A DNA stretch of 64,000 nt from Methanococcus aeolicus Nankai-3 (GTDB taxonomy: Archaea; AGJL01; Methanococci; Methanococcales; Methanococcaceae), in contig NC_009635.1 in NCBI RefSeq assembly GCF_000017185.1, forward strand, positions 1,263,189 to 1,327,188, read 5' to 3'. The notes beneath the pieces are model-generated. The model was not told the DNA's origin. It was given only the letters and a program-made list of their open reading frames with translations, and ran no database searches. Below are positions 1-64,000 of this stretch, in pieces. The translations under genes and the position numbers were made by a program. The first letter of the stretch is position 1, and the number at the start of each line of letters is the position of its first letter.

Positions 1-13
1 ATTTTGTGATATT

Positions 14-709
14 ATGGATTATAAAGACATATACGACGATAAAATCAAAGAAAGGGGAGGGCAATATTATAAAAATAATCTTGTTAATTTCTGTGTAAAA
101 TTTGAAAATAAATTATATGGCAAAGTTGTTGGAGGGGATTTATACAGAACCACTGTGGATTTAAAAGATTATGCTGGAATTTGCTCCTGTCCATATAAAT
201 ACAATTGCAAACATGCCTACGCTTTAATTGAAGCATATAAAAATAATAATTTCATTAATGGGGACGAATTATTTAATAATTTAAAAAATAAACCAAAAGA
301 TGAATTAATTGATATTTTGAAAAATATTGTTGTCGATGGCTTTTTTTGGGGGGAGCTCCTTGAACGGAACAATAAAAATAATCTTGTGGAAAAAGGAAAA
401 TCTATTTTAAAATTAATTCCTATTGAAAATAAAAATATATATACATTTAAGTCATTTTTAAGAAATAGATTTTTAAAAAATGCCACTAATGAGGAATTAT
501 TGGATTTATTGGAAGAAATTGCAAATAATGAGTATCTTGAAGCTGAAAATAGGGATACCATTGAAATAGTTGAAATGATGGTATTGGAAATATTTGAAAG
601 AAATAATAAAGAATTGGTAAAAAGTGCTTTAAAATTATACAATAAACGAAAAAATAAATTATGGCTTGTAAATGAATATTATATTGATTATTTTGGAATT
701 GAATATTAA
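14..709 (+). CDS. SWIM zinc-finger protein
   Basis: This 231-residue protein carries a SWIM-type zinc finger at residues about 57-71. The pattern is Cys-x-Cys followed by Cys-x-His (CSC...NCKHAYAL), matching the CxCx(n)CxH signature of this family. SWIM domains bind DNA or protein partners, and the role of this protein is unknown. The rest is rich in Lys, Asn and Glu and looks mostly helical, with no enzyme motif that I recognise. The ATG at 14 follows a GTGAT ribosome-binding sequence. The gene stands alone, and a family-A repeat element begins about 70 bp past its stop codon. Confidence 0.75.
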   Translation: MDYKDIYDDKIKERGGQYYKNNLVNFCVKFENKLYGKVVGGDLYRTTVDLKDYAGICSCPYKYNCKHAYALIEAYKNNNFINGDELFNNLKNKPKDELIDILKNIVVDGFFWGELLERNNKNNLVEKGKSILKLIPIENKNIYTFKSFLRNRFLKNATNEELLDLLEEIANNEYLEAENRDTIEIVEMMVLEIFERNNKELVKSALKLYNKRKNKLWLVNEYYIDYFGIEY

Positions 710-780
710 TCAATATATAAATATATACTTAAAAATAATGGTATAAAAATAGTAAAAAAATAGAAAATAAATATTTATTC

Positions 781-996
781 ATAGTCAATCTTCGGACTTT
801 TTCACTAAATCACACAGATTAAGCTAAAAATATCTACCCATTACTAAAAAATAAAGAAATTTATTTACAAAAGCTATGCTTTTGTACAAAATCCTAGAAG
901 GATTTTGTTTACAAAATCTTCGATTTTGTATAAAATCTCGAAGAGATTTTGTTTAATAATAAGCCGGATAAGGGACAATTATTGAAGATTGCCTAT
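781..996. repeat. Family-A hairpin-bearing inverted-end repeat (copy 1)
   Basis: A non-coding element begins with ATAGTCAATCTTCGGAC and ends with a degenerate inverted copy (GAAGATTGCCTAT). Inside are four short hairpins in series, each an A/T-rich stem such as ACAAAATCCT/AGGATTTTGT, ACAAAATC/GATTTTGT, ACAAAATCTC/GAGATTTTGT and ACAAAAGC/GCTTTTGT. Close relatives lie near 5.3, 12.0, 16.8, 23.6, 50.9, 51.4 and 59.4 kb. No transposase is present, so it looks like a miniature inverted-repeat element. It lies between two genes and ends 5 bp from the guaB stop codon. Confidence 0.8.
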
Positions 997-1000
997 AATT

Positions 1001-2476
1001 TTATTTATTCATTGGATAATTTGGAGCTTCATTTGTAATAATCACATCATGAGGGTGGCTTTCTTTCTGACCGCTTTGAGTGATTATTACAAATCTTGCT
1101 TTTTCATGCATTTCTTTTATATTCTTTGCTCCACAGTATCCCATAGACGACCTTAAACCGCCCATTAATTGGTATATTGTATCTTTAACGGCTCCTTTGT
1201 ATGGGACAGCTCCTTCTATACCTTCGGGAACCATTTTAACATGCTTCATTTCGCTTTGGAAGTATCTATCTGCTCCACCGCCTGCATTGGTTGTCATAGC
1301 TCCAACAGAGCCCATTCCTCTATATTGTTTGTATCTTCTTCCGTTAATTGTAATTAACTGTCCTGGAGCTTCGTCCGTTCCTGCCAATAGACTTCCTAAC
1401 ATTACGGCATCAGCACCTGCTGCAATTGCCTTTGCTATATCTCCACTGAATTTAATTCCACCATCTGCAATCACTGGAACACCATGCTCTTTTGCAACAC
1501 TGGCAACTTCGGCAACTGCTGTTAGCTGGGGAACTCCAACTCCTGCAACTATTCTTGTGGTACAAATACTTCCCGGACCAATTCCTACTTTTAAGGCATC
1601 GGCTCCCGCGTTTATTAAGTCAATAGCTGCTTCTTTTGTAGCTATATTACCTACAATTAATTTTATGTTTGTTCCTTCTAATTCTTTTTTAAGTATTTTA
1701 ACATTATTTACAACAGTCATATTGTGGGCATGAGCACAGTCAATAGCTATGGCATCAACTTCGGCATCTATTAGTGCATGAGCCCTATTTAAATCACTTG
1801 GACCACATGCTCCTGCTACAATTAACCTTCCTTTTTCGTCTCGTGCTGCATTCGGATATTGTTTTCTTTTTAAAATATCTCGTAATGTCATCATACCTAT
1901 TAATTTTTTATTTTTTACAATAGGTAATCTCTCTATTTTGTAATTATACATAATTTCCGTGGCCTTTTCATGGGTTGTATCTTCATCGCCCACAATTAAC
2001 TTTTTAGTCATACAGTCCTTTAAAACTGTTTTTTTATTTTTAATATATTTTATATCTCGTGTCGTGATTATGCCAACCAATTCATCGTTTTCATTTACAA
2101 CAGGCAATCCACTAATTGATACCTGTTCCATCAATCTTTGAGCATCTGCCACGGTTGAATCTGGCGATATTGTATAAACATCTCTAACAATTAAATCTTC
2201 TGCTTTTTTAACTGCCTTTATCTGATTTACCTGTTCTTCCACAGTCATATTTCTGTGAATTACTCCTATTCCACCTTTTCTAGCAATTGCAACAGCCATA
2301 TCTTTTTCAGATACTGTATCCATTGCAGCAGATACCACTGGAATATTTAATTTTAATCCACATAAATTTACAGATAAATCTGTGTCTTTTGGCTCTACAA
2401 ACGAAGCATTAGGAATTAATAAAACATCATCAAATGTATAAGCTTTTTTGGCTTTTTCTAATTTATTTAAAAACAA
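1001..2476 (-). CDS. guaB: Inosine-5'-monophosphate dehydrogenase
   Basis: IMP dehydrogenase oxidises IMP to XMP with NAD+, the committed step of guanine nucleotide synthesis. The N-terminal TIM-barrel strand ([12 protein letters not shown]), a CBS-domain pair at about residues 90-205 and the catalytic loop [15 protein letters not shown] with its active-site Cys are all visible. The flap and phosphate-binding motifs follow ([26 protein letters not shown]). An ATG exists at 2488, but a GGTGA site inside that extension places a TTG start at 2476. The protein would then begin [14 protein letters not shown], as I recall for methanogen homologues. The start choice is an inference. About 490 residues is the normal family length. 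Confidence 0.96.
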
Positions 2477-2707
2477 AATCTCACCCATATATCCTTTTAT
2501 ATATGTTATTTAAAATAATATATATACTTTACAGTTAATAGAATAATATATAATGTAAATATATAAAATTATAAAGATTATATGTATGTATTACAATTAT
2601 TGGGTATGTATATTATATGTATTATATTTATTATTGTATTTTCATTGCATTCTTATTGTATTCATTATTATATTTATTATTGTATCTAAATTATATTATG
2701 TGAAACT

Positions 2708-62445: not shown

Positions 62446-62530
62446 TGCGGGGGAAGGGATTCGAACCCTCGAACTCCTATGAGACTAGGCCCTCAACCTA
62501 GCGCCTTTGGCCAGGCTTGGCAACCCCCGC
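62446..62530 (-). tRNA. tRNA-Leu (GAG)
   Basis: The acceptor is GCGGGGG/CCCCCGC. The anticodon loop is TTGAGGG (anticodon GAG) and a long variable arm is present (TCTCATAGGAG). The normal T-loop is GTTCGAATC. It is divergent from tRNA-Met. Confidence 0.95.
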
Positions 62531-62567
62531 ATTTAAATAAAAATCGCATAGGGTAGTTTTATATAAT

Positions 62568-62604
62568 CATATATAAACTTTTCGTAGAAAAGTATTTATA
62601 TTAG
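62568..62604. promoter_or_regulatory. Second near-palindromic divergent tRNA promoter pair
   Basis: TATATAAACTTTTCG on the left mirrors GTAGAAAAGTATTTATA on the right, as at 30.32 kb. The left half faces tRNA-Leu and the right half faces tRNA-Met. Both carry the CGAAAAG-type BRE next to the TATA box. Confidence 0.78.
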
Positions 62605-62688
62605 ATCGTAATAGTTAAAGATGCCTTGAAAATAATAAGTTATATTTAGGAGCTCCATGCAATATTGTATGGTCGTTCAATTGGAATT

Positions 62689-62804
62689 GCCGAGGTGGCT
62701 TAGGCTGGTTATAGCGCTCGGCTCATACGGATATTCCTAAGGGGTTTAATCCCCTTGGGTCCTGGGAAACCGAGAGGCCGGGGGTTCGAGTCCCCCCCTC
62801 GGCA
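62689..62804 (+). tRNA. tRNA-Met elongator (CAT) with an intron
   Basis: The acceptor is GCCGAGG/CCTCGGC and the anticodon CAT lies at 62724-62726. After A37 a 41-base intron (62728-62768) interrupts the loop. It contains a GGGG/CCCC hairpin, consistent with the archaeal bulge-helix-bulge splice site. Joining the exons restores a CTCGG/CCGAG anticodon stem with loop CTCATAA. Intron position (37/38) is canonical and the same gene has an intron in Methanocaldococcus. Confidence 0.92.
62728..62768 (+). other. tRNA-Met intron
   Basis: An inserted 41-base sequence between positions 37 and 38 of the tRNA. AAGGGG and CCCCTT stems close a TTTAAT loop. It would be removed by the tRNA splicing endonuclease. 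Confidence 0.85.
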
Positions 62805-62857
62805 TTTTTTTATAATAATATATATTTATGTATGTATATTTATTAATTATATTTTTT

Positions 62858-64000
62858 TTATTTTTTACATGGAGCTCCGAAGAAATTTATTTTTTCAATT
62901 AATTCATTAAAAGCATCTAATTCAAAATTTAAAACTTCTTCTTTTGTCATTGTTCCGCTAACTTCTCCATCAACTGTCAATTTATCTACTCCCCTTAATA
63001 CTATTCTACCTTTTCCATCTCTGTTTAATATTTCCTCTGCTGCCCTATCATGAACAAATGCCATTGGTGGTATAAATACCGTATCTGTTAGGTTATCTAA
63101 ATTTACGGTTTCAAGATCTTTTGAAGTTATCAAATCAGAAATATCTTTATTTACTTTTACAATATTTATTGGGGTATCTTTGAATATTTTATTTAAATAT
63201 ATATAGGATATATTTCCTGTAATTATGGTGGCTTCTGATTTTATTTTTTCTCTTAATTTTATTAATAAATCTTCTTCATAGGCTATTGCAAATGGTGCAT
63301 TTGTTAATGGGTCATATAATGGTGTTCCTGTAATTCTTATTTTGTCTCCAAATTCCTCATAGGTTTCTTTTACTATGTTTTTAAATGCCTCGATATCATG
63401 GGGCTCAAATTCCTCTCCTTCAATTAATGGTTCATTTTCAAGTATTAATCCATGTTTGGTTCTATTCGCAAATCTCATCAATATTACGGCATGGGCTCCC
63501 CATTCTATTAAATCATTAATGGTTTTTTTTAATTCCTCGCCATCATTTACATTGGGCACTAAAATTATGGCACAATGAACTTCGCAATATTTACAAAGAT
63601 ATTTTAAACAATTTAGAGAATTTTCTGCATTGGGGTCATTTAGCCATTCTTCTCTTATTTTGGGGTTTGTGGAAAATACTGAAAATGTGGTTTCATCTAC
63701 TCCACAATTTATTAGTTGTTTTACGGTTTCAACCGATTTAAAACCTTTTCCAGATGTATATCCCAGGTGAATTTTTAAATTAAGCTGTTTTATGTAGTCG
63801 CAGAGCTCCGCCAATTGAGGATAAAAACTAACATCTCCACCACTGGTTATATTTATTTTATGGTATTCTTCAAAAAATAGGGCATTTTGTATTTGCTGAA
63901 TGGCAAACGGAAGCGGGATAAAGTCTCCATTTATCTCTCTTATTGAATTGGTGCAATAATCACAACCTATTTGAAATGTGCAATTTTTACAACCCAATGG
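62858..64000 (-). CDS. Radical-SAM methanogenesis marker 10-like protein (partial, N-terminus off the window)
   Basis: At least 379 residues are visible. Stretches such as [58 protein letters not shown] and [14 protein letters not shown], plus the C-terminal [20 protein letters not shown], fit the methanogenesis marker 10 radical-SAM protein, as I recall it. That enzyme methylates an arginine of methyl-coenzyme M reductase. The radical-SAM CxxxCxxC motif is expected upstream, beyond 64000. Another radical-SAM family is possible. Confidence 0.75.

Follow-up and report, generated by a model that had tools for sequence, protein, structure and literature searches.

GGAGCTCC, a highly iterated palindrome of Methanococcus aeolicus, and its GAGCTC core in some Methanococcales

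The palindrome GGAGCTCC was found 46 times in the window studied here, a stretch of 64,000 nucleotides from Methanococcus aeolicus Nankai-3, and 1,259 times in the genome to which the window belongs. This corresponds to about one site per 1,250 bases, more than 100-fold above chance. The recognised unit is the 6-bp core GAGCTC, which is extended to GGAGCTCC in M. aeolicus. We regard the pattern itself as established beyond reasonable doubt. Our reading of it is tentative, with a probability of about 0.42: the palindrome would be the target of a putative symmetric DNA-binding protein that acts in genome maintenance.

Abundance of the palindrome and its core

All 46 copies in the window are letter-exact at the positions given by the initial annotation and no further copies exist. 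The chance level stated there was about 0.1. Markov models of orders 0-4, fitted after masking GAGCTC, predict 0.09-0.51 copies, and 100 dinucleotide shuffles of the window gave a mean of 0.18 with a maximum of 2. The window holds 62 GAGCTC cores, sixteen of which do not carry both outer bases of GGAGCTCC, so that the claim of at least a dozen additional core sites was also borne out. The palindrome had further been said to saturate the DNA, but the spread of the sites is uneven: the stretch between 31966 and 44914, which belongs to a provirus, is thin.

The genome (G000; window at C1, 1263189-1327188) is a single contig of 1,569,500 bases with 30.0% G+C. A genome-wide count against a Markov null model, proposed by the initial annotation as a check, lies nowhere near expectation, since masked models of the same orders predict 2.1-11.4 copies of GGAGCTCC. 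The core GAGCTC occurs 1,645 times against 63-94 expected, an 18- to 26-fold excess, while GGAGCTCC read backwards has no copy in the whole genome. In the window as well as in the genome, GGAGCTCC is the most over-represented 8-mer and GAGCTC the top 6-mer. The densities of 802 per Mb for GGAGCTCC and 1,048 per Mb for GAGCTC fall inside the range of highly iterated palindromes (HIPs), which is about 500-2500 per Mb. One-base deviants of GGAGCTCC occur at 268 places for the outer base compared to 103, 22 and 103 for positions 2 to 4. The predominance of outer-base deviants identifies GAGCTC as the enriched core, which corrects the earlier framing as an 8-mer.

A dispersed mobile repeat of the miniature inverted-repeat transposable element type was ruled out, as the flanks hold almost no information (at most 0.06 bit) past the first base outside the 8-mer. 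The palindrome is also unlikely to be the pure fossil of a lost system because intact sites far exceed the products of one-base decay, with 1,259 intact copies against about 500 single mismatches, background included.

A force acting on DNA and the placement of sites

The sites in G000 are found in all three codon phases and in intergenic DNA. In three genomes, the share of eligible peptide contexts that use GAGCTC exceeds the prediction from codon usage about 5- to 23-fold in each phase. The codon-usage test in a second core-rich genome (G023) gave 208 Glu-Leu sites against 8.9, 125 of 170 for [GR]A[LPHQR] against 17.6 and 38 for xSS against 2.6. When the exact Glu-Leu codon pair was compared with a quasi-independent expectation, it was found 628 times against 8.6 in G000 (73-fold), 208 against 3.6 in G023 (58-fold) and 81 against 1.9 in a third rich genome, G033 (43-fold), whereas its one-base synonyms stay at 0.3-2.0 times expectation in all three. 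Recognition is therefore all-or-none; mismatches in the core show no graded enrichment and grading is limited to the outer bases. Gly-Ala-Pro tripeptides number 366 in G000, with 54-103 expected, and 353 of them are spelled GGAGCTCC. The force acts on DNA, in every codon phase, and the motif shapes the proteome, not the reverse. This upholds the earlier view that the protein does not explain the sites, and coding or dipeptide bias was rejected as their cause by the enrichment in three phases together with the synonym test.

A given residue is less conserved when it is encoded by a site than at other places (0.52 versus 0.76 for alanine, compared to G023), thus the sites settle in tolerant positions. 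Of 249 sites that can be aligned between G000 and G023, 87 are intact and no more than 20 differ by a single base. Where Glu-Leu is conserved, both genomes carry the site in 46 of 70 cases, compared to 87 of 329 elsewhere. As they are shared intact while four-fold positions are only 49% identical, the sites are old and maintained as units. New sites differ from their homologous sequence by many bases, with a modal distance of 3.

The spacing of the sites is slightly more even than random. Spacings below 200 bp number 149 compared to 186 for random placement (p 0.0005) and those above 3.2 kb number 71 compared to 96, with the pair density not reaching 1 until about 700 bp. The genic density in G000 is 0.75 per kb (1,000 sites in 1.33 Mb), and the intergenic densities are 0.82 per kb for divergent, 0.97 for tandem and 2.25 for convergent gaps. 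In tandem gaps the site density follows a gradient away from the stop codon; gaps between convergent genes sometimes hold close site pairs. T-tracts are not enriched beside intergenic sites, where A-tracts are found instead. A terminator role was rejected since no T-tract adjoins these sites, and for the same reason the placement in G000 suggests that purifying selection acts on promoters and not on terminators. Two glycan-biosynthesis regions (genome positions 398212-412143 and 435317-451254) have few or no copies of GGAGCTCC, with none at all in the one at 398-412 kb, and are probably often exchanged.

Natural control DNA is provided by the integrated provirus, which occupies 30893-46141 of the window and is bounded by 46-bp direct repeats at 30893-30938, in the 3' end of tRNA-His, and at 46096-46141. 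It encodes a tyrosine integrase (31013-31987), an MCM helicase (32189-34387) and a HerA/terminase-like ATPase (37082-37690). The helicase shares about 45% identity with a Methanocaldococcus fervens tailed virus 1 protein, and a search of viral contigs found no relatives of the provirus. The provirus contains nine GAGCTC, where its base composition would give 0.7, but no more than three GGAGCTCC, where the genome mean would give 12. The share of 8-mers among its cores, three of nine, is below the 77% of the genome (binomial p 0.007).

Cores outside the 8-mer are clustered in the G000 chromosome, and the two genes richest in them lie in segments resembling G033 DNA (genome positions 525731-530963 and 356084-358737, both outside the window). 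One match spans 2.2 kb with 98.5% DNA identity and the other 5.2 kb with 96.6%, and one segment carries a metal-ion P-type ATPase. Ortholog pairs with third-position identity above 0.75 have 7-14% 8-mers compared to roughly three quarters in the others. At this DNA identity both segments proved to be recent transfers shared with G033, which has the GAGCTC dialect; the direction of transfer is deduced from their flanks. The transferred sites have kept these flanks, and the dialect is therefore a slow-changing property of the resident lineage. Recent gene transfer can also be traced simply by dialect, as was done for the two strongest outlier genes.

GAGCTC counts are bimodal across the 36 Methanococcales genomes, with 1,315-2,070 copies in four of them (G000, G023, G029 and G033) and 4-229 in the other 32. 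In samples of G023 and G033, GAGCTC exceeds a second-order model 15-fold and 9-fold respectively and shows only a mild preference for G..C flanks. Reading outward, C occupies 85% of flanking positions in G000 compared to 37% and 29% in G023 and G033. The flanking bases are species dialects, a looser and species-specific preference than that for the core. In a tree of one hydrogenase protein, the rich genomes fall in two places among poor ones, which requires at least three changes and indicates that gains or losses were patchy. G028, which is in the same genus as the rich G000, G023 and G029, avoids AGCT (54 against 594 expected in 200 kb). A weak excess of GGAGCTCC was also seen in the second family of the order (G001-G014), with 15-33 copies per genome against 0-4 of the reversed word and 49-229 GAGCTC.

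Candidate explanations and known systems

In our reading, an iterated palindrome with the core GAGCTC occurs about once per kb in some Methanococcales, and GGAGCTCC is its form in the local dialect. A putative symmetric (homodimeric) DNA-binding protein or nuclease would bind it in the service of repair, recombination or the control of DNA degradation. A single site in roughly every 1 kb would suffice for such a binder, and therefore modest selection, with a scaled strength near 4 if the sites are at mutation-selection equilibrium, could gain and keep sites where proteins and promoters allow. DNA living in such hosts, proviruses included, would gain sites too, and lineages that lost the recogniser or came under AGCT-targeting pressure would have lost them. 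A more specific version, which we hold more tentatively, takes the palindrome as an archaeal self-DNA tag. Read all-or-none by the putative symmetric protein, once per kb, with species-dialect flanks and without methylation, it would identify resident DNA as a substrate for repair or recombination or as DNA to be spared degradation, and the viruses of the host would carry it too. Several observations weigh against the maintenance reading. No recognition protein was identified, and the distribution of the mismatch endonuclease NucS does not follow that of the palindrome. Spacing gives a weak signal, the estimate of selection assumes equilibrium, and the convergent-gene enrichment is seen in G000 only, the intergenic density being lower than the genic in the G023 and G033 samples. 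A uniform function alone also leaves the AGCT avoidance in G028 unexplained.

The main rival is biased DNA uptake or conversion, which we consider rather unlikely. Competent cells would favour site-bearing DNA in uptake or recombination, and biased exchange would spread whole sites by molecular drive, as for the DNA uptake sequences and uptake signal sequences (DUS/USS) of Neisseriaceae and Pasteurellaceae. The dynamics appear to match those of uptake sequences (PMC2397512, PMC1939737) in the density near one per kb, the mildly even spacing, the high conservation in permissive positions, the distance of new sites from homologous sequence, the site-poor glycan and provirus stretches, the close pairs at gene ends between convergent genes and the species dialects; natural transformation is moreover known in the genus (PMC10133366). 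What does not match is that known DUS are not palindromic, that mismatched forms have graded enrichment in PMC1939737 while the core here is sharp with synonyms near expectation, and that core enrichment extends to the provirus. The M. maripaludis paper (PMC10133366) mentions no uptake specificity. Uptake sequences would be expected to be missing from newly gained DNA, for which the picture is mixed: the glycan region at 398-412 kb has no site, but GAGCTC is present in the provirus and, in the dialect of the donor, in the transferred segments. A repair or mutation ratchet that creates sites without benefit to the cell, after Elhai's model of GmeC-directed mismatch repair for HIPs, seems improbable to us. 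A density of about one site per kb and outer-base deviants, both predicted by that model (PMC4390886), are seen in G000, and GAGCTC has a central GC. The model also needs a methyltransferase for the core, which was not found; NucS is absent from all four GAGCTC-rich genomes and one-base precursors are not consistently depleted. Codon or dipeptide bias, or a dispersed mobile repeat, is extremely improbable as the source of the excess: many sites do lie in Glu-Leu and Gly-Ala-Pro, both of which are over-represented, but intergenic DNA and all three phases are enriched, the strong rise is confined to the exact codon pair, and the flanks are unconserved past the first outside base.

Methylation of GAGCTC, now or recently, by an orphan methyltransferase as at a HIP1-like epigenetic site is quite improbable as well, the enzyme being either of an unrecognised family or recently lost. 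Restriction-modification enzymes typically recognise a 6-bp palindrome in this all-or-none manner, and cyanobacterial HIPs accompany cognate methyltransferases (PMC4390886). The word ACGT is nearly absent from G000 (41 against 1,138), where no C5 methyltransferase gene is left, likely the trace of a lost MaeII-type system, thus such genes do get lost. The initial annotation had allowed for a methylation role and suggested looking for a GAGCTC methyltransferase gene, but the one clear DNA methyltransferase gene found in G000 (207511-208851) is of the N4 type (PF01555) with a nuclease-like tail and adjoins a gene for an MjaI-type nuclease, which targets CTAG. The avoidance of CTAG in this genome (613 against 1,926) fits this pair. 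Family and catalytic-motif searches of G000 found no C5 (PF00145), D12 (PF02086) or full-length HsdM-type (PF02384) gene, G023 is without a true PF01555 gene, and none of the four searched families is common to both genomes, so that a methyltransferase of the searched families was rejected as the cause. For the sister strain PL15/Hp, the published methylome comprises CTAG, GTNAC, GCACY and CGAG, plus ACGT as an inferred motif, and not GAGCTC (PMC10113651), although its method sees 5-methylcytosine poorly and carriage of the motif by PL15/Hp itself is not established. Targets of SacI-type restriction-modification share the same six bases and the all-or-none specificity. Restriction sites are normally avoided, however, whereas GAGCTC is over-represented, and the SacI-type nuclease family RE_SacI (PF09566) has no match above cut-off in the 36 genomes.

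The anatomy of the system, by comparison, matches that of the cyanobacterial palindromes HIP1 (GCGATCGC) and its alternates (Robinson 1995; Elhai 2015, PMC4390886) except for the methyltransferase. Both are GC-rich 8-bp palindromes found about once per kb in genic and intergenic DNA, with outer-base deviants, species-dependent extension and patchy loss in relatives. In the sense of Elhai (2015), GGAGCTCC has the characters of a HIP in being the top over-represented GC-rich palindrome and in its density and outer-base deviants. It differs in being archaeal, in its word and core, in the core-specific methyltransferase gene not found in G000 and in that recent transfers are traceable by dialect in Methanococcales. 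The earlier description of a HIP1-like palindrome with another sequence in an archaeon is therefore supported, as the iterated palindrome was confirmed and is not explained by coding. The role of HIP1 has been in question since 1995, with its methyltransferase as the favoured clue; a counterpart in a distant domain, where no such enzyme was found, separates the question of palindrome function from that of methylation and argues that iterated palindromes need no methylation. Methanococcales are culturable and some are transformable, hence the recogniser can be sought directly. No earlier report of the motif in archaea was found in the open-access literature searched. Signals of the Chi type are also short over-represented words, and GAGCTC could likewise mark resident DNA for repair, but as a palindrome it has no orientation. 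Archaea are not known to have a Chi system of the RecBCD/AddAB type.

Sites and other features in the window

The first palindrome of the window, at 352-359, is genic and in phase 2. Those at 10919-10926, 13389-13396, 21984-21991, 22857-22864 and 58479-58486 are in phase 0, where they encode Gly-Ala-Pro. Intergenic copies are located at 4353-4360 and, close to it, 4372-4379, and at 5628-5635, 11947-11954, 14400-14407, 26645-26652, 30135-30142, 46235-46242, 48257-48264, 51360-51367, 56393-56400 and 62649-62656. Two copies lie outside the set of open reading frames used, one at 23567-23574 and the other at 19838-19845, adjoining a match to the flpD RNA (19791-19837). The provirus copies are found at 31966-31973, in the 5' end of the integrase gene, at 39810-39817 and at 44914-44921. 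The remaining exact matches are at 4042-4049, 6048-6055, 6492-6499, 7835-7842, 9811-9818, 15144-15151, 16593-16600, 24670-24677, 26131-26138, 28317-28324, 28788-28795, 47401-47408, 49528-49535, 50715-50722, 50760-50767, 52682-52689, 53095-53102, 54391-54398, 56006-56013, 57422-57429, 58205-58212, 60763-60770 and 62871-62878.

GAGCTC cores that do not carry both outer bases were observed at 6633-6638, 7455-7460, 11592-11597, 13339-13344, 13654-13659, 18975-18980, 48887-48892, 53901-53906, 61320-61325 and 63803-63808, and within the provirus at 36028-36033, 36890-36895, 37351-37356, 39107-39112, 40662-40667 and 42734-42739.

A separate dispersed repeat containing TAGTCAATCTTCGG occurs near positions 5606, 23737 and 59613 of the window and at about 109 places genome-wide. 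It is not clustered in the manner of CRISPR and is possibly structured.

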